Positions 1,684 to 22,462 of a stretch of 22,513 nucleotides of DNA are shown here, in pieces. The translations under genes were made by a program, and so were the position numbers. The notes beneath the pieces were generated by a model. That model was not told the DNA's origin. It saw only the letters and a program-made list of their open reading frames with translations, and searched no databases. The DNA lies in IMG/VR virus record IMGVR_UViG_3300017724_000096, positions 1-22,513 of that record, one strand, 5' to 3'. The stretch is from a virus. The first letter of the stretch is position 1. Each line of letters starts with the position of its first letter.

Positions 1684-1693
1684 TATATTTATA
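1684..1693 (+). promoter_or_regulatory. TATATTTATA promoter-like box directly before the S74 fibre gene
   Basis: A perfect copy of the TATATTTATA box seen before several other genes in the window. It ends only four bases before the ATG at 1698. A bacterial start site 5-8 bases beyond the box would fall at or inside the start codon and give a nearly leaderless mRNA. The CTGAAC tail seen at stronger copies is absent. It may therefore be a chance match in AT-rich DNA. Confidence 0.35.
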
Positions 1694-1697
1694 ACAT

Positions 1698-3713
1698 ATG
1701 GCTATAAAAATTAAACATACAAATCCTTCTTTAAATGAATTTGCTACTGATGATTTAGTAGTAAATATCAATGAAGGGGCGTTATTTTTTAAATCTAACA
1801 CCAAATTATTTAGAATACAAGGTGATAACATATTAACTACCGGATCTTTAGAATCAGGTATTTTTTATGAAGGAATGGATTTATTCCCTCCAACGATAAA
1901 AAGAGAAGAACAACAAGCAAACCAAGTAACCACAAAAACTTATTGGGTAGACAATGAAGACGTAAAAGCAGACGTTCATATAGGTGCACAAGTAGAATTA
2001 TCATCTAATAACCCTGTATATCCTCGTTTAGCAATTCAACCCCCAGGTCACACTGGTGGCCCTTTTGCCTTATATGCAAGAGATGATGCGTCTTCTGCTT
2101 ATTTAGACTGGCATTATGGTCTTACTACAGGTAATCATATAATGACCTTTAAACATACTGGTAATGTTGGTATAGGAACAACTTCACCATCTGCTAGAGT
2201 TCATATAGAAGGTTCTAATGAAACCTTAAGAATAGTATCACCTACAGCAGGTAATACTCATTTTTCTTATAATGGAGTAGATAATTATTTTTCTTACGCA
2301 ACCACAGGTAACACATTTTTTAGAACATATAATGGTTCTGCTTATACTAATAGAGTATTTATTTCAGGAAGTGGTGAGGTTGGTATAGGACTTATTACTC
2401 CATCACAACAACTCCATATTAAAGAAAATATGATGATGGGAGATAATGCTGGTGGTGGTAATTTTATACACGGAAGAGACAACCTAGCACTTTCAGCCGA
2501 TGGAGTAGTTTCAATAGTTGCAGATGCTAATGACACATCTGGTGTTGGTTCTTCAGACCTATTTTTAGGTTATGGTTCTTCTGTTGATTTAAACTCAGTA
2601 GCTACCTCATCATATGGAGATACTTTTCCTTCTAATACACCTAGAGTTACTTTAATAAAACTTGACTCATCTGCTAATAATGTTGGTATAGGAAATAATT
2701 TTACTGGTACTGCTGATATGAGGTTACATGTTAGTTCTTCGGATGTTAATATTCTTAAATTAGAAAGAAGCGATGTTAATAATGTAAACGTAGCTTATAC
2801 AAATACCACTGGTACAATGTATGCGGGTATAGATACAATTTCTAGTGCACTAATTTGGGGAGTAGGAAGTAATCAAGACATGAGTGCAGGAGCTGTACTT
2901 ACAGTTTCAGGTGATAAAGTTGGTATAGGAACAACAGCCCCATCTCACACACTAACTGTAGACATGAGTAGTGATGTTAATCATATCTACAACCAATCAA
3001 CTAATGCTAATGGTTTATTTATAAAAGGAAATGGAACAGCAAGAGCCGCACACACAGGACCCGATGGACCTGGTATATATTTAAGTTCGGGAACTACTAG
3101 TACAGCAGAATTTAACCCTGCACTTATTTCGGTAGCTTCTAAGGATTCTGGAGGAGGTGGACTTCATATATTAACAATACCTCCAGATGACCACGCTGAC
3201 CATCCAGGACTAGTAATTAGAATGGACGATGCTCAAGCTACATCAGATGCATCTAGATTTGCAGAACATTCTGACATAGTTCAATTTTTTAATTATACAA
3301 CAGAATCCTTTAGAATAGCACATGATGGTACTCTTACAGGATTAGACACATCTATTGGTTCACTTTCAGATAAAAGATTAAAGAAAAACATAGAAAATTA
3401 TCAATATGATTTAGAAAAATTTAAACAACTTAAAACTAGAATATTTGATTGGAAAAATCCTAAGGAACACGGTAATAAATTTCAACAAATAGGTTTTATT
3501 GCTCAAGATTTAGAAAAAATAGATCCTAGATGGGTTAAAGAACATAAAATAAATCTTGAAAGTCCCGACAATGATTTTTTAGACAAAGATAAAATATCTA
3601 AGACAACCCCTTTAGGACAAACAGATGCAATGTATGTTTCAATAATACAACAACTTATTACAAAAGTAGAAAATATAGAAAAAGAATTAAAAGAACTAAA
3701 AAATGGCAAATAA
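1698..3713 (+). CDS. Tail fibre with C-terminal S74 intramolecular chaperone
   Basis: A 671-residue fibre or spike protein. Residues 1-60 look like an attachment domain (AIKIKHTNPSLNEF onward). The shaft contains four spaced VGIG motifs near residues 157, 228, 329 and 408, three followed by (T/I)(S/T/A)P and a short strand. The C-terminus is a peptidase S74 domain starting SDKRLKKNI, with the serine-lysine dyad at Ser557 and Lys562, the same five-residue spacing as in endosialidase-type fibres. In that family the domain trimerises the fibre and then cleaves itself off just before the serine. That would release about 115 residues here and leave a 556-residue mature fibre. The tail IIQQLITKVENIEKELKELK is the expected terminal coiled coil. 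The 3' end overlaps the next gene by 11 bases. Confidence 0.88.
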   Translation: MAIKIKHTNPSLNEFATDDLVVNINEGALFFKSNTKLFRIQGDNILTTGSLESGIFYEGMDLFPPTIKREEQQANQVTTKTYWVDNEDVKADVHIGAQVELSSNNPVYPRLAIQPPGHTGGPFALYARDDASSAYLDWHYGLTTGNHIMTFKHTGNVGIGTTSPSARVHIEGSNETLRIVSPTAGNTHFSYNGVDNYFSYATTGNTFFRTYNGSAYTNRVFISGSGEVGIGLITPSQQLHIKENMMMGDNAGGGNFIHGRDNLALSADGVVSIVADANDTSGVGSSDLFLGYGSSVDLNSVATSSYGDTFPSNTPRVTLIKLDSSANNVGIGNNFTGTADMRLHVSSSDVNILKLERSDVNNVNVAYTNTTGTMYAGIDTISSALIWGVGSNQDMSAGAVLTVSGDKVGIGTTAPSHTLTVDMSSDVNHIYNQSTNANGLFIKGNGTARAAHTGPDGPGIYLSSGTTSTAEFNPALISVASKDSGGGGLHILTIPPDDHADHPGLVIRMDDAQATSDASRFAEHSDIVQFFNYTTESFRIAHDGTLTGLDTSIGSLSDKRLKKNIENYQYDLEKFKQLKTRIFDWKNPKEHGNKFQQIGFIAQDLEKIDPRWVKEHKINLESPDNDFLDKDKISKTTPLGQTDAMYVSIIQQLITKVENIEKELKELKNGK

Positions 3714-5778: not shown

Positions 5779-5802
5779 TTCTTATGGTTTCTGAATCTCG
5801 CA

Positions 5803-5818
5803 TATATGTATATCTGAA
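5803..5818 (+). promoter_or_regulatory. Putative late promoter, TATATGTATA + CTGAA
   Basis: ATATATGTATATCTGAA at 5802-5818 matches all 17 bases of a site at 9386-9402. Both lie in gaps shortly before a gene (38 and 32 bases from box to ATG). The box differs from TATATTTATA by one base. It is followed by an A-rich leader without a Shine-Dalgarno sequence. Confidence 0.6.
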
Positions 5819-5850
5819 TTAATAATAAAAATAAATTAACATTTTAAGTT

Positions 5851-6132
5851 ATGGCAGACGCAATCAAATTTACAGAAGACGAATTAAAATCACTTCAAGA
5901 ACTTCAAGGAACTTATAATTCTATTACCATGTCAATGGGTCAATTAACATTATCTAGATTAAGTTTAGATAAGCAAGAAGAACAACTAAAAACAGCTTTA
6001 GAAGACACTCGTACTAAAGAAAATGAATTAGCTAAAACACTTACTGACAAATATGGTAAAGGATCTTTAGACATAAGTACAGGAGAATTTACCCCATCCT
6101 CAGAAGAATCTACTGAAGAAGCTACTAAGTAG
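5851..6132 (+). CDS. Small coiled-coil protein of unknown function
   Basis: A 93-residue acidic protein. Residues 8-70 are strongly helical with heptad-like Leu spacing (LKSLQELQ, LTLSRLSLDKQEEQL, LEDTRTKENELAKTL), predicting a coiled coil. It then has KYGKGSLDISTGEFTP and a Ser/Glu/Thr-rich tail. The length and the KYGxGxLDxxTGxF-type end recall small uncharacterised proteins near structural genes of marine T4-like phages, but I cannot name a function. It has its own promoter-like motif upstream and a hairpin downstream, so it may be a single-gene unit. Its place just before the sheath suggests a virion or assembly helper role (inference). Confidence 0.7.
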   Translation: MADAIKFTEDELKSLQELQGTYNSITMSMGQLTLSRLSLDKQEEQLKTALEDTRTKENELAKTLTDKYGKGSLDISTGEFTPSSEESTEEATK

Positions 6133-6153
6133 TAATTGCTTTGAATTATATTT

Positions 6154-6163
6154 TATATTTATA
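6154..6163 (+). promoter_or_regulatory. TATATTTATA box overlapping a hairpin
   Basis: A perfect TATATTTATA box, but followed by GGTGACC rather than CTGAAC. Its 3' end forms the left arm of the hairpin at 6160-6189. It lies 105 bases before the sheath start, and a second box lies closer at 6215. It could be a tandem promoter or simply part of the terminator flank. Confidence 0.35.
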
Positions 6164-6189
6164 GGTGACCCCAAAAGAGGTCGCCTATA
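6160..6189 (+). terminator. Intergenic hairpin, probable terminator or RNA-processing stem
   Basis: ATAGGTGACC (6161-6170) pairs with GGTCGCCTAT (6179-6188) with one G-U pair, around an eight-base CCAAAAGA loop. T6160-A6189 extends it to 11 pairs. The downstream sequence AGTAGTTTTGGTTT has only a weak U-run, so this is a poor classical terminator. It could act as an attenuating or mRNA-stabilising stem between the small protein gene and the sheath. Confidence 0.55.
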
Positions 6190-6214
6190 GTAGTTTTGGT
6201 TTATGAAATGTTTT

Positions 6215-6230
6215 TATATTTATATCCAGA
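6215..6230 (+). promoter_or_regulatory. Putative late promoter of the sheath gene
   Basis: TATATTTATA at 6215-6224 is followed by TCCAGAACAA, close to the TCTGAAC tail at other copies. It lies 44 bases before the sheath ATG, with an A-rich leader (AACAAAATAAAAATAACAAT) and no Shine-Dalgarno sequence. Confidence 0.6.
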
Positions 6231-6268
6231 ACAACATATTGAAATAACAAAATAAAAATAACAATAAG

Positions 6269-8782
6269 ATGGCAGAAACTATTATTTCACCAGGTGTATT
6301 TACAAGAGAAAATGATCTTTCTTTTTTACCCGCTGGTATTGGAGCAATTGGAGCGGCAATCGTAGGACCTACAGTTAAAGGACCTGCTTTTGTACCTCAA
6401 GTAATTACAAGAGGATTTTCAGAATTTGAAAGAGTATTTGGACCACAACATCCTGAAACTTATGTCCCTTTTGCAGTTAAAGAATATTTAAGAAACGCAG
6501 GAACTGTAACAGTATTAAGAGTATTAGCTGGGGGAGGTTATAAGTATAACGATACTATGAATAATGCAATTGCAATTGTAAATAACAATCCAGCATCTCA
6601 AGCAGGAGGTCAAATTATATCAATTATTGTTCCTTCAAAAGGAAATAATTTATCTGATTTAAATGCTTCTACTTTAACTGCAGCTTCAGATGGTGATTTA
6701 ACACCAGAAGCAAATGAAAAATTAGCATTAACATTATCAGGTTCATCTATAGCTAAAACAGTTATTTCAATGTCTCTATTATCTACAGATTCTCAATATA
6801 TTGAGAGAACATTAGGTACTAGTGCAAGAAATTCAAAAATAGGAGGAAATACTTATTCAACAGGAGAGGGTAGTGCAATTTCTAACCCATCAGCTAAACC
6901 AGCTCATTTAGCAATTCATTTTAAAAATAAATCATTATCTAGTTCTCTTGATAATGAAGTATTATTACTAACAGGAAGTGTTTCAGCAAGTGATTTTACG
7001 AATTCAACATTTACAGAAGGATATGATCATGCAAAAACTCCAATGATTACCTCAGGATATACAAATTCCCCAGGTACTTCTACTGTAGATTTATTTAAAT
7101 TCCACACATTAGCAGATGGAACATCAACAAATAAAGACTTTAAAATATCTGTTACTAATTTAAATGATGGTCAATCAGATATAGATGGTGTAGAACAATA
7201 TGCAACATTTACAATACAATTAAGAGGATATGGGGATACAGATAAAGCTCCAACAATTTTAGAAGAATATACAAATGTAAATTTAAATCCAGATAGTCCA
7301 AATTATATTGCAAGACGAATTGGAGATAGATTCCAATCATATAATACAACATTAGGTAAAGTACTTACATCAGGTGATTATCCAAATATTTCACAATTTA
7401 TAAGAGTTGAAGTATCAGAAGGAGTTTCAGAAGGATCATTATCTCCTAAATTATCACCAAGAGGATTTAAAGCAGTTACAGATCCATTTGCACCATTCCA
7501 ACAAGCACCAGGTGGAACAGTATATAGATTCCCAGGAGCTACTTATCGTACTTCACAACAATTATCAGGAACTTACAATTTAAAAGCTTATTTAGGTTGG
7601 GATTTCTCAGAAAAACAAAATGAAAATTGGAACAGACCAGTAGCTAATTTAGGACAAGCAAATGTAGCATCAGGTTCTTCAAAAACAACTAATTTCTTTA
7701 ATGTTGATGATTTTAGTATGCATGCAAGTGCTTCAGCAACATTTGTTGGATCTTTAAGTGCATCAACTGATAACACAGGAACAAGTGGACCAAGAGGAAA
7801 AGATCTTAAATTCTCAGTACCATTCCAAGGAGGAAATGATGGTATGAGCCCAGCAATAATAAGACAAATAGGAGAATATGCTACAGCAACTAATGTATAT
7901 GGATTTAATTTAAGTTCAACAAGTGCTACAGGATACACAGCTTATAAAAAAGCATTAGACATATTATCAAACCAAGATGAATATGATATTAATATGTTAG
8001 CATTACCAGGTGTAGTTAAAAATTTACACGCACCAGTAACAGATGCAGCAGTTACAATGGCAGAAGATAGACAAGATACTTTCTATGTAATGGATTTATC
8101 TACAGTAAATGCATCAGTAGCTCAAGCAGTTAATGATGCAGATGGATTAGATACTAATTATGCAGCATCATATTATCCATGGGTAAAAGTGCTAGATACA
8201 TCGCGTAACAAGCCAGTATTTGTTCCTCCATCAGTTATAGTGCCTGGTGCAATAGCTGCGTCAGATCGAATTGGAGCTGAATGGTTCGCACCAGCAGGTT
8301 TAAATAGAGGTGTATTAGGAACTGTATTAGAAGCTAAAACAAGATTAAATCAAGCTGAAAGAGATGAATTATATGAAGGTAGAGTAAATCCAATCGCAAC
8401 GTTCCCAGCAACAGGAGTTTGTATTTGGGGTCAGAAAACACTTCAAGTAAGACCAACAGCATTAGATAGAATTAATGTTAGAAGATTAATGATCGCAGTT
8501 AAGAAATTTATCGCAAGTTCTTCTAAATATTTAGTATTTGAACAAAATACAATTCAAACAAGAAATAGATTCCTAAACATTGCAAATCCATTCTTAGAAT
8601 CAGTACAACAAAGACAAGGATTATTTGCATTTAGAGTAACAATGGATGAAACAAATAACACACCAGATGAAATAGATAGAAATAGATTAATTGGTGCAAT
8701 ATTTTTACAACCAGCTAAAACAGCAGAATTTATAGTACTTGATTTCAATATTCTTCCAACAGGAGCAACATTTGGAGATTAA
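6269..8782 (+). CDS. Contractile tail sheath protein (T4 gp18-like)
   Basis: An 837-residue protein that polymerises around the tail tube and contracts on infection. The N-terminus SPGVF (residues 7-11), then GAIGAAIVGPTVKGPAFVP and FSEFERVFG, is the classic start of phage sheath proteins. The C-terminal 240 residues carry the conserved inner core: the WVKVLD segment, an insertion-prone loop around LDTSRNKPVFVPPSVIV, then RINVRRLMIAVKKFI and IGAIFLQPAKTAEFIVLDF. These form the donor-strand mesh and the tube-facing domain. T4 gp18 is 659 residues, so about 180 extra residues sit in the Ser/Thr/Asn-rich middle (roughly 120-480), probably surface-exposed outer domains. The tube gene follows at once, as in other myoviruses. 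Family assignment is very secure. Confidence 0.95.
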   Translation: MAETIISPGVFTRENDLSFLPAGIGAIGAAIVGPTVKGPAFVPQVITRGFSEFERVFGPQHPETYVPFAVKEYLRNAGTVTVLRVLAGGGYKYNDTMNNAIAIVNNNPASQAGGQIISIIVPSKGNNLSDLNASTLTAASDGDLTPEANEKLALTLSGSSIAKTVISMSLLSTDSQYIERTLGTSARNSKIGGNTYSTGEGSAISNPSAKPAHLAIHFKNKSLSSSLDNEVLLLTGSVSASDFTNSTFTEGYDHAKTPMITSGYTNSPGTSTVDLFKFHTLADGTSTNKDFKISVTNLNDGQSDIDGVEQYATFTIQLRGYGDTDKAPTILEEYTNVNLNPDSPNYIARRIGDRFQSYNTTLGKVLTSGDYPNISQFIRVEVSEGVSEGSLSPKLSPRGFKAVTDPFAPFQQAPGGTVYRFPGATYRTSQQLSGTYNLKAYLGWDFSEKQNENWNRPVANLGQANVASGSSKTTNFFNVDDFSMHASASATFVGSLSASTDNTGTSGPRGKDLKFSVPFQGGNDGMSPAIIRQIGEYATATNVYGFNLSSTSATGYTAYKKALDILSNQDEYDINMLALPGVVKNLHAPVTDAAVTMAEDRQDTFYVMDLSTVNASVAQAVNDADGLDTNYAASYYPWVKVLDTSRNKPVFVPPSVIVPGAIAASDRIGAEWFAPAGLNRGVLGTVLEAKTRLNQAERDELYEGRVNPIATFPATGVCIWGQKTLQVRPTALDRINVRRLMIAVKKFIASSSKYLVFEQNTIQTRNRFLNIANPFLESVQQRQGLFAFRVTMDETNNTPDEIDRNRLIGAIFLQPAKTAEFIVLDFNILPTGATFGD

Positions 8783-8806
8783 AAATTAAGAAAAACTTAA
8801 AAAGCT

Positions 8807-8823
8807 TATATTTATAACTGAAC
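8807..8823 (+). promoter_or_regulatory. Putative late promoter of the tail tube gene
   Basis: TATATTTATA (8807-8816) followed by ACTGAAC, 27 bases before the tube ATG. There is no clear terminator between sheath and tube, so this box would add extra tube transcription to read-through from the sheath. That suits a protein needed in many copies. Confidence 0.62.
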
Positions 8824-8843
8824 AATAAAAACAAAATAAGAAG

Positions 8844-9329
8844 ATGGCAATATTAAACACAAACGAAATGTTCTACACAGCATTCGAACCTAAAGTACAA
8901 AATAGGTTTGTAATGTTTATTGATGGAATCCCAGCATTCCTAGTTAAAAAAGTAGGACGACCAAACATATCATTTGGAGACATAACTCTTGATCACATTA
9001 ACGTGAAAAGAAAATTAAAAGGAAAAGCGGATTGGCAAGACATTACAGCTGAACTTTATGATCCAGTAACACCATCAGGTGCTCAAGCAGTAATGGAATG
9101 GGTTCGTTTGTCACACGAGTCAGTTACAGGTAGAGATGGTTATTCTGATTTCTATAAAAAAGACATTAGATTTAACGCTTTAGGTCCTGTAGGTGATGTT
9201 GTTGAAGAATGGATTTGTAAAGGAGCTTATTGTAAAGCAGCTAACTTTGGAGAATTTGATTGGAGTTCTGAAGCACCAGCAAACATCTCACTTACTATTA
9301 GAATGGATTACGCCATCTTAAATTACTAA
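8844..9329 (+). CDS. Tail tube protein (T4 gp19-like)
   Basis: A 161-residue protein, almost the length of T4 gp19 (163). Family hallmarks include the N-terminal FEPKVQNRFVMFIDGIPAFLVKKV, HINVKRKLKGKADWQDITAELYDPV, and the C-terminal region from WICKGAYCKAANFGEFDWSS to ISLTIRMDYAIL. It assembles as stacked hexamers to form the inner tube through which DNA passes, inside the sheath. It sits immediately after the sheath gene and is closed by a strong terminator, so sheath and tube form a unit. Its codons are less T-rich than those of the fibre genes, consistent with high expression (an impression, not measured). Confidence 0.94.
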   Translation: MAILNTNEMFYTAFEPKVQNRFVMFIDGIPAFLVKKVGRPNISFGDITLDHINVKRKLKGKADWQDITAELYDPVTPSGAQAVMEWVRLSHESVTGRDGYSDFYKKDIRFNALGPVGDVVEEWICKGAYCKAANFGEFDWSSEAPANISLTIRMDYAILNY

Positions 9330-9351
9330 TAGTAATAAATTATATAAAAAG

Positions 9352-9377
9352 AAAGCGCCTAATTTGGCGCTTTTTTT
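9352..9377 (+). terminator. Strong rho-independent terminator after the tail tube gene
   Basis: AAAGCGCC (9352-9359) pairs perfectly with GGCGCTTT (9366-9373) around the six-base loop TAATTT, followed by a continuing T-run to 9377. The A-run upstream and T-run downstream make it possibly bidirectional, although no gene converges on it here. Confidence 0.9.
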
Positions 9378-9386
9378 ATTTCTCTA

Positions 9387-9402
9387 TATATGTATATCTG
9401 AA
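9387..9402 (+). promoter_or_regulatory. Putative late promoter of the tail chaperone gene
   Basis: ATATATGTATATCTGAA at 9386-9402 is identical over 17 bases to the site at 5802-5818. It comes just after the tube terminator and 32 bases (from box end) before the next ATG. This is where a new promoter is required. Confidence 0.65.
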
Positions 9403-9428
9403 CTAGTTTTAATAAAATAAATAACGTT

Positions 9429-10205
9429 ATGGAACAAACACAACAAAAACCCCAATTTCCTACTGAAGAAGTAACATTACCTTCAAAAGGATTACTTTAT
9501 CCTGAAGGACATCCTTTAAAATCAGGAAAAATCACAATGAAATATATGACAGCTAGAGAAGAAGATATCTTAACTAATCAAAATTTCATTAAAAATGGCA
9601 CAGTAATTGATAAATTACTAAAATCACTTGTAGTCGATAAATTTATAAATTTAGACGACATGTTAATTGGTGATAAAAATGCTATATTAGTAGCTGCACG
9701 TATTTTAGGATATGGTAGTGAGTATACTTTTAAAGCACCTCACCCAGAAACAGGTGAAGAAGAAGAAATAACAATAGATCTAACTGAAGCTGACGATAAA
9801 CCTTTTAATGAAGAATCTTTTAATGGTGATAATGAATTTGAATTTCAATGTCCCCATTCAAAAGTATTACTTACATTTAAACTTTTAACTCAAGGTGATG
9901 AGAAAAAAATTGAAAATGAGATAAAAGGACTTAAAAAAATAAGTAAACTTAATACAGCAAATTTAACTACACGTCTTAAACATTTTATTACTTCAGTTAA
10001 TGGTGATAGAGATATTAAAACAATTAGAGATTTTGTAGATAATCAATTTTTAGCACGAGATTCAAGAGCTTTTAGGGATTATGCTAAAGAAATTATGCCA
10101 GATATAAATTTAAAATTTGATTTGCAATTTAATGATGGGACAGTTGCAGAAGATATAATGCTTCCCATTAGCATTAACTTTTTTTGGCCTGACGCCTCAG
10201 TATAG
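9429..10205 (+). CDS. Baseplate hub/tail assembly chaperone, T4 gp26-like
   Basis: A 258-residue protein matching the T4 baseplate protein (gp26-like) pattern: VTLPSKGLLYP at residues 15-25, MKYMTAREEDILTN at 37-50, GDKNAILVAARILGYGSEY at 81-99, and an acidic middle with FQCPHSK. T4 gp26 is 208 residues. The frame ends FFWPDASV shortly after AAC TTT TTT TGG. The +1 frame beyond this T-run continues for 84 codons with gp51-like sequence. The position between tube and tape measure is that of tail assembly chaperone pairs (lambda G/GT and equivalents), which are often linked by programmed frameshifting. I infer two products: 258 residues, and a minor fusion of about 336. Confidence 0.8.
   Translation: MEQTQQKPQFPTEEVTLPSKGLLYPEGHPLKSGKITMKYMTAREEDILTNQNFIKNGTVIDKLLKSLVVDKFINLDDMLIGDKNAILVAARILGYGSEYTFKAPHPETGEEEEITIDLTEADDKPFNEESFNGDNEFEFQCPHSKVLLTFKLLTQGDEKKIENEIKGLKKISKLNTANLTTRLKHFITSVNGDRDIKTIRDFVDNQFLARDSRAFRDYAKEIMPDINLKFDLQFNDGTVAEDIMLPISINFFWPDASV
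10176..10187 (+). promoter_or_regulatory. Probable programmed ribosomal frameshift site (T7 run)
   Basis: In the zero frame the codons read AAC TTT TTT TGG. A Phe tRNA on the second UUU (10182-10184) can re-pair perfectly one base downstream (10183-10185). It would then read GGC at 10186 and enter the gp51-like frame, a +1 shift; a -2 shift reaches the same frame. The zero frame stops at 10203-10205. A one-base homopolymer sequencing error is the competing explanation. Confidence 0.6.
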
Positions 10206-10440
10206 GGTAAACCTATTCGACCAAATACATGATCTGGTGTACCATGGCGGTGGTGGATTCATACATTCAGAAGTATACAACATGCCTATTTGGTTAAGAA
10301 TATTTCACATTAATAAGATTAGTGAATGGAATAAAAAACAAAATGAAGAACTGGAAAAAGCTCAGGGCCAATCTAATATTGGAGACAATAATAAAGTAAT
10401 GGGTCCTGCTGTTAATCCTAATTCTACATTTAATTATTAA
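10186..10440 (+). CDS. gp51-like frameshift extension of the tail chaperone gene
   Basis: An 84-codon frame, +1 relative to the gp26-like gene, open from 10159 to the TAA at 10438. From 10186 it begins GLTPQYRVNLFDQIHDLVYHGGGGF, followed by VYNMPIWLRIFHINKISEW and a Lys/Glu/Gln-rich helix. This pattern is that of the small gp51-like baseplate hub assembly proteins of T4-like phages. No ATG exists before the MPIWLR methionine, and the earliest standard alternative start is GTG at 10237, which would discard the conserved-looking GLTPQYR segment. That favours synthesis as a C-terminal extension by frameshift rather than independent initiation. A separate GTG-initiated 67-residue product cannot be excluded. 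Confidence 0.68.
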   Translation, partial: GLTPQYRVNLFDQIHDLVYHGGGGFIHSEVYNMPIWLRIFHINKISEWNKKQNEELEKAQGQSNIGDNNKVMGPAVNPNSTFNY

Positions 10441-10444
10441 AAAC

Positions 10445-10475
10445 ATAAGGGTATCGCAAGATACCTTTATCTTTT
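10445..10475 (+). terminator. Rho-independent terminator with GCAA tetraloop
   Basis: AAGGGTATC (10447-10455) pairs with GATACCTTT (10460-10468), with one G-U pair, around a stable GNRA-type GCAA loop. Flanking bases extend the stem by two more pairs, and CTTTTT follows at 10471-10476. It ends the chaperone unit just before the tape measure promoter. Confidence 0.85.
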
Positions 10476-10490
10476 TATATTTATATTCGA
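10476..10490 (+). promoter_or_regulatory. Putative late promoter of the tape measure unit
   Basis: TATATTTATA (10476-10485) followed by TTCGAATAA, similar to the CTGAA(T/C) tail elsewhere. It begins inside the T-run of the preceding terminator and lies 21 bases before the tape measure ATG. Confidence 0.58.
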
Positions 10491-10506
10491 ATAACTATAT
10501 AATACT

Positions 10507-13222: not shown

Positions 13223-13236
13223 AATATTTATAAATA
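13223..13236 (+). promoter_or_regulatory. Promoter-like box before the repeat protein; also contains TATAAATA
   Basis: AATATTTATA at 13223-13232 is one base off the window's recurrent box. It overlaps TATAAATA at 13229-13236, an exact match to the T4 late-promoter consensus. It lies in the short gap before the ATG at 13249 and is followed by an A-rich leader. The double match arises because TATTTATAAATA is nearly palindromic, so which element is functional is unclear. Confidence 0.45.
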
Positions 13237-13248
13237 AAAACAACAATT

Positions 13249-13818
13249 ATGGGATTAAAAGAATTAAAATCAAATTTAGACCTAGTACAAGGAGAAGGAT
13301 CAGTAGGAGGTATGGCTGATCTTACTGTACCTAATTTCCAACTTGGAAAAGAAGAAGCCTCACAAAAACATATAGACAGTCTACAAGCAGTACCAGGAGG
13401 AGATAGTAATTCACCTCATCAAGATATGGATGGTCAACCTGGGCCTCAATTTCAAAGAGAAAGAGATATAGCTTCACAAGCACACATAAGCTCTTTAGCT
13501 TTAGTACCAGGGGGAGATAGTAATTCAGCTTATCAAGATTTAGATGGACAACCAGGTCCACAATTTCAAAAAGATGTAGACGCAGCTACACAAGCGCATG
13601 TGGATTCATTACTATCAGTACCAGGAGGAGACAGTAATTCACCTTATCAAGATTATGACGGTAATCAACCACCAGCTTTTCAAAGATCAGTAGATGACGC
13701 TACTGCTCAATCATTAAATAGTTTATTTGCTGTACCAGGTGGTTCATCAAATTCACCATTTCAAGATAGAAATGACGGTGTAACACCACCAAAATATTTA
13801 GATAACTTACCAAGCTAA
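13249..13818 (+). CDS. Tandem-repeat virion protein (4 x 38 residues), unknown function
   Basis: A 189-residue protein not assigned to a known family. After a 29-residue leader beginning MGLKELKSNL it consists of four near-perfect 38-residue units. Each has the pattern FQ(R/K)xxxxA(S/T)xxxxxSLxxVPGGDSNSPYQDxDG, with VPGG at 48, 86, 124 and 162 and Phe of FQ at 30, 68, 106 and 144. The units are rich in Gly, Pro, Asp, Ser and Gln, have few hydrophobics and no cysteine, so they are probably extended or only locally folded. The start MGLKELKSNL resembles MGLKKLVSDL of the next gene, suggesting a common docking peptide. The gene lies four bases before a baseplate gene, so a tail or baseplate linker role is inferred. 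Confidence 0.72.
   Translation: MGLKELKSNLDLVQGEGSVGGMADLTVPNFQLGKEEASQKHIDSLQAVPGGDSNSPHQDMDGQPGPQFQRERDIASQAHISSLALVPGGDSNSAYQDLDGQPGPQFQKDVDAATQAHVDSLLSVPGGDSNSPYQDYDGNQPPAFQRSVDDATAQSLNSLFAVPGGSSNSPFQDRNDGVTPPKYLDNLPS
13336..13791 (+). repeat. In-frame tandem repeat, four units of 114 bases
   Basis: Units at 13336-13449, 13450-13563, 13564-13677 and 13678-13791. Units 1 and 2 are the most alike at DNA level (GTACCAGG(A/G)GGAGATAGT and onward); units 3 and 4 diverge more. All are the same length with no indels, so length is probably under selection. Confidence 0.85.
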
Positions 13819-22447: not shown

Positions 22448-22462
22448 CATATTTATGACTGG
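22448..22462 (+). promoter_or_regulatory. Promoter-like motif after the polymerase gene
   Basis: CATATTTATG (22448-22457) followed by ACTGGAA is a weaker version of the recurrent TATATTTATA + CTGAAC motif (two box mismatches). It begins five bases after the polymerase stop codon and lies 22 bases before the ATG at 22480, the spacing seen at other copies. Confidence 0.4.

Follow-up and report, generated by a model that had tools for sequence, protein, structure and literature searches.

What is the AT-rich box that recurs ahead of the tail genes of the virus contig IMGVR_UViG_3300017724_000096, and which protein reads it? We analyzed this contig over its full 22,513 bp (hereafter the window). 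Its + strand carries all main genes, which encode a tail fibre with an S74 chaperone, a tail sheath, a tail tube, a T4-type baseplate hub, a tape-measure-like protein, a gp53-like wedge, and a large protein bearing a metallopeptidase. The base composition is 68% AT and intergenic DNA amounts to 633 bp (2.8%). The nearest isolates are Flavobacterium phage immuto and Microcystis phage Mel-JY01, with Rhodothermus phage RM378 more distant. We consider it probable that the box is a -10-like late-promoter element of a large T4-like contractile-tail clade, comprising immuto, Mel-JY01 and hundreds of environmental contigs, and that a phage sigma factor of the gp55 family most likely reads it.

Boxes in the window

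The functional core of the element is ATAT[T/G]TAT(A). Ten copies of ATAT[T/G]TAT lie on the + strand of the window, nine of them intergenic, and none on the - strand. The longer form TATAT[GT]TATA occurs seven times on the + strand, always between genes, and never on the - strand (0.37 expected per strand); together with the downstream tail it is found five times against an expectation of 0.003. The boxes and their neighbors are as follows.

1685..1693, + strand: putative late box ATATTTATA, with the ATG (1698) of the tail-fibre gene 13 nt on; spacing atypical
5804..5818, + strand: putative late promoter, ATATGTATA plus TCTGAA, before the orf at 5851-6132
6155..6163, + strand: putative late box ATATTTATA, lying partly on the left arm of a hairpin (6159-6190); first of two before the tail sheath gene
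6216..6231, + strand: putative late promoter before the tail sheath gene
6269..8782, + strand: tail sheath gene (phrog_23, E 2e-66; PF04984)
8808..8823, + strand: putative late promoter before the tail tube gene
8844..9329, + strand: tail tube gene (phrog_4542, E 4e-28)
9348..9377, + strand: terminator-like hairpin, directly upstream of the box at 9388
9388..9403, + strand: putative late promoter ATATGTATATCTGAAC before the baseplate-hub gene
9429..10205, + strand: baseplate hub gene (T4_baseplate; PF12322, E 1e-6; phrog_150)
10445..10470, + strand: terminator-like hairpin, directly upstream of the box at 10477
10477..10492, + strand: putative late promoter before the tape-measure-like gene
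from 10507, + strand: tape-measure-like gene, homologous to the immuto tape measure
13224..13232, + strand: putative late box ATATTTATA, before the orf at 13249
22449..22456, + strand: putative late box ATATTTAT, downstream of the last complete gene

The initial annotation had read these boxes as late-promoter-like, and a late promoter is the best-backed reading. Its five main boxes (5803, 6215, 8807, 9387, and 10476) all lie where it placed them, 21-44 nt before an ATG when measured from the end of the 10-mer; the copies at 5803 and 9387 are indeed identical over 17 bases, counting from the preceding A, and those at 9387 and 10476 do come right behind terminator-like hairpins. Four further positions had been listed as weaker forms (1684, 6154, 13223, and 22448). 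Boxes are present at all four (1685, 6155, 13224, and 22449), but the label of weak is wrong for two of them: the core at 13224 is perfect and conserved before four of five orthologues, and the one at 6154 is likewise perfect and overlaps a hairpin. The same annotation had noted the T4 late motif on the complementary strand. The self-complementary TAT..ATA flanks make this match trivial, and we rejected a reverse-complement T4 promoter as a by-product of these palindromic flanks.

Counting 11 bases on from the leading T of TATTTAT leads to a purine in eight of the nine intergenic window boxes, the exception being the box at 1685. The distance from box to ATG is 25-53 nt for most boxes, and 13 and 114 nt for two. 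Since the box at 1685 lies only 13 nt before its ATG (window 1685-1700), an mRNA initiated by the +11/+12 rule would there be nearly leaderless.

Two side observations concern the window itself. The first of the two boxes before the sheath gene (6155-6231) lies on the hairpin AGGTGACC...GGTCGCCT, and the same layout is kept in the relative G011 (25204 and 25263). Between the hub and tape genes, a small orf (10237-10440) with the repeated peptide GDNNKVMGPAVN has no family match.

Conservation of the box and a separate host-type class

Relatives were gathered by tail-tube protein similarity alone and their upstream regions were dereplicated. TAT[T/G]TAT was present upstream of the sheath gene in 38/38 cases, the tube gene in 57/57, and the baseplate hub gene in 30/34 (approximately 4 expected each), as well as upstream of 9/21 orthologues of orf5851 and 4/5 of orf13249. 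It was found in 0/50 upstream regions of genes internal to the downstream operon (orf13823, gp53-like, orf16540, orf20273, and orf21160). TATTTAT itself occurs in all 57 tube upstreams (2.8 expected), and ATATTTAT in 56 of the 57 in sense and none in antisense orientation. Given that the window is 68% AT, one could ask whether the box is a chance pattern, but the 10:0 strand bias and the 57/57 conservation at orthologous genes refute this reading, the probability of which is virtually nil.

In the alignment of tube upstreams (n = 57), an A precedes the core and an A or T follows it, while position +11 contains only purines and position +12 almost only purines. The tail CTGAAC is a lineage-specific extension of the core ATATTTATA at the putative start site, with the near-invariant purine 11 bases in. 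A conserved CTGAA-like tail, as first described, holds within the subclade of the window but not as a general feature, since other relatives carry ATAGAAC, AACGGAAT or AATAAAA instead. When the 17-base window form TATATKTATAWCTGAAC was searched in viral contigs, 94 of the 98 exact matches listed outside long ORFs fell in contigs of this clade, as judged by the presence of clade proteins.

The expected enrichment before + strand structural genes was found in the window, in six large relative genomes, and at orthologous genes. In the upstream gaps of these genomes, ATATTTA occurs in sense and antisense orientation 38 and 4 times in immuto, 25 and 5 in Mel-JY01, 36 and 2 in G001, 25 and 1 in G002, 35 and 5 in G010, and 17 and 2 in G009 (5-9 expected); it is the top-ranked gap 7-mer in G001, and is absent from the gaps of a 20-kb T4 control. 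Most late gaps of the close relatives G011 and G023 contain one or two boxes. Terminator-like ends lie within 30 nt upstream of 82/149 boxes, compared to 10/148 at a shifted control. The tail-tube upstreams of RM378 and LR756508 lack the box.

The position of the boxes close to start codons would also fit an RNA-level element, i.e., a translation enhancer or a processing or stability signal. However, the distance to the ATG varies, the boxes adjoin terminators, and they are absent at operon-internal genes, and we regard this reading as very improbable. It is also unlikely that the box is a middle promoter or binds an activator instead of acting as a late promoter that depends on a sigma factor. 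Some non-structural operons of immuto (GroES and PhoH) do carry the box, but it is enriched before virion genes (in immuto those for terminase, portal, sheath, tube, tape, and tail spike, and the baseplate operon), no second spaced upstream element accompanies it, and the near-invariant purine at a fixed +11/+12 resembles a start site.

We also considered whether the box is a host promoter that host sigma A would read; the initial annotation had noted a resemblance to a Bacteroidota TAnnTTTG element with the last G changed. In Bacteroidota promoters, a TTG element at -33 lies about 19 nt upstream of TAnnTTTG. The latter constitutes the -7 box (PMC9723704). The box TATATTTA does match TAnnTTT, and Flavobacteria host part of the clade. 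Nevertheless, there was no TTG at any fixed spacing upstream of the late box in the six genomes, nor any other conserved upstream column; conservation is lacking at the initial T of TAnnTTT (0.53 in that column), whereas ATATTTAT is conserved; and the same box occurs in a Microcystis phage and in phages with Shine-Dalgarno leaders. Moreover, a distinct host-type class, TTGC-N19-TANNTTTA, is present in the same phages: in immuto, G009, and G010, TTGC precedes TANNTTTAGG by exactly 23 bases (15, 18, and 18 cases, respectively), i.e., with a 19-nt spacer and the same layout as the Bacteroidota host promoter. A cluster of small uncharacterised genes in immuto carries TTGC-N19-TA[TC]NTTTAGG in place of the late box. 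In light of the missing -33 TTG, the separate host-type class, and the Microcystis phage box, we rejected the host TAnnTTTG reading as quite improbable.

Several further elements were observed in the relatives. A putative early-type promoter array, TTGC-N19-TA[TC]NTTTAGGTATCAATAATTAAAAC, precedes many small uncharacterised genes in immuto (NC_055915, 60900-73400) and also occurs in G009 and G010. In the gaps of Mel-JY01 (PP395634), another 7-mer, CTTGCAT, is strongly enriched (11 sense vs. 0.2 expected) and is perhaps an early promoter of this phage. At NC_055915 137878 and L420 ~1977, a conserved stretch of non-coding DNA, GAAGTGGGC..CA..G.GTAACCAA.C.TAAT, comes after a late box and is possibly a structured RNA; an Rfam scan of the window and relatives gave no match.

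A candidate late sigma factor

A marginal gp55 match (E 0.008) in a search with phrog_234 and phrog_12791 pointed to immuto gp118. As these two families were only marginal in immuto and gave no match in other clade records, a profile route was taken. The gp118 family is abundant, with at least 600 stretches. A search with Mel-JY01 gp118 as sole query found nothing. Profile alignment of gp118 with gp55 was colinear from the N-terminus over the first ~110 residues (hhalign E 1.5e-5; 6e-5 for the wider family alignment); single sequences aligned weakly (E 0.09), and the best E against Pfam Sigma70_r2 was 0.004-0.01. In gp55 numbering, the equivalents of Y10 and Y97, an acid at D74, and F or Y at F86 are each conserved in 40/40 members. 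These residues suggest that gp118 contains the core-binding acidic helix and base-pocket aromatics of sigma domain 2. N13 is replaced by T in 33/40 members and the H95 equivalent is F or Y; as cyanophage gp55s also have F at H95, the N13 change alone is suggestive. The gp118 alignment shows no evident counterpart of the gp55 C-terminal tail that binds the clamp, hydrophobic-acidic in character, although T4-like variants may differ.

Structural modeling is consistent with these alignments. All 50 structural matches of the AlphaFold model of gp118 (mean pLDDT 80.5) were to sigma factors or to polymerase chains that were interpreted as sigma-like. The T4 gp55 complex 7d7c was among the top matches (Z 9.6, 121 aligned, rmsd 4.3), bearing in mind that Z scores are inflated by helical folds and that the absence of other folds from the structure library is no evidence. 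Foldseek alone yielded no E below 0.1. A TATTTAT box lies between gp118 and the next gene at all 22 loci first inspected and at 27/49 in a more diverse set. LR756508 encodes a gp118 homologue, although its tail tube gene lacks the box, and gp118 was not found in G001 and G002, which carry boxes and lack the baseplate block. It was also not found in the window or in the contigs of its closest relatives, because these contigs stop short of the region; the phage of the window probably encodes gp118 as well. Altogether, gp118 is a plausible candidate for a late sigma of the gp55 family, with binding to the box predicted from sequence and model.

Beyond this region, gp118 continues into another helical domain (~138-232), part of which resembles a helix-turn-helix, and structural alignments of the full-length model extend to sigma domain 4, with large rmsd. 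This C-terminal domain had no Sigma70_r4 sequence match up to E 1, weak matches to the Trp_repressor helix-turn-helix, and no alignment with T4 gp33. Searches for gp33 (phrog_254) detected it in T4 and Syn1 and not in immuto, Mel-JY01, G001, G002, G009, or G010, where a divergent gp33 could escape detection. Searches for a gp45-like sliding clamp were positive for G001, G002, and Mel-JY01 and negative for immuto, G009, and G010. A review of T4 raises the question of why a fused late sigma has never been found (PMC2988020). We tentatively propose, as a hypothesis that is somewhat doubtful as it stands, that gp118 is possibly such a natural fusion, in which a gp55-like domain 2 and a sigma-4/gp33-like helix-turn-helix would replace T4 gp55 and gp33. 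In the PolA-type phages (immuto, G009, and G010), late transcription would then proceed without a T4-type clamp, and the altered -9 pocket (N13 to T) would explain the change of AA to TT in the promoter.

The proposed sequence of events is as follows. Early genes would be transcribed from the host-type promoters, TTGC-N19-TANNTTTA. Host RNA polymerase with a gp55-family phage sigma, most likely immuto gp118 and its relatives, would later read the late promoter, the consensus of which is A-TATTTAT-A with no -35/-33 element. Transcription would probably start at the purine that lies 11-12 bases past the leading T of TATTTAT, i.e., the G or A of CTGAA in the window lineage. The promoter would drive virion gene clusters, and it often sits just past the terminator that closes the previous cluster.

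Comparison with known systems

A phage late promoter is an ordinary kind of element, but neither ATATTTATA nor TATTTATA was reported as one in the open-licence literature searched; the form is clade-wide, and the sigma that plausibly goes with it is unusually built. With this box, late genes and transcription units can be recognised by one simple sequence rule in a large group of T4-like phages from the environment that infect Bacteroidota as well as other hosts. The predicted gp118 model aligns with bacterial sigmas over both domains 2 and 4 (ECF type, SigH, and SigB), but differs from them in lacking a Sigma70_r4 sequence match, and the box lacks an upstream promoter element. With Bacteroidota sigma A promoters, the late box shares the fit of TATATTTA to the -7 half; it differs in having no -33 element and no last G, and in being found outside Bacteroidota hosts.

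The T4-like cyanophages S-PM2 and Syn9 keep the late promoter NATAAATA (PMC2984593). Like the present clade, they have a late box ahead of structural genes and a gp55 homologue, but they retain the central AA, and gp33 is present (Syn1). In T4 itself, the late box TATAAATA occupies positions -13 to -6, there is no -35 element (PMC2988020), and the box is read by gp55 with gp33 and gp45 (PMC2988020; PMC7892883); Y97 of gp55 stacks on A-12, N13 and H95 hold A-9, and T99 holds A-8 (PMC7892883). The present element is likewise an AT-only box of 8 bp near -10, with no -35, that precedes virion genes; the A at -12 and -8 is kept, the Y97 equivalent is invariant, and relatives have a gp55-like sigma domain 2. 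The T4 consensus itself is replaced by TATTTATA or TATGTATA, with sense TATAAATA upstream of the tube gene in 2/57 cases and of the sheath gene in 2/38: TATTTATA has a central TT (or TG) where TATAAATA has AA (-10/-9), the rest being the same. In addition, the pocket residue N13 is mostly T in gp118, which has an extra C-terminal domain that gp55 lacks, while gp33 was not detected in clade genomes nor gp45 in immuto-type genomes. gp118 is a concrete, testable candidate for the fused late sigma whose absence T4 specialists have asked about (PMC2988020), and with promoter and sigma both altered relative to T4, the clade could serve to test DNA recognition by sigmas of the gp55 type.
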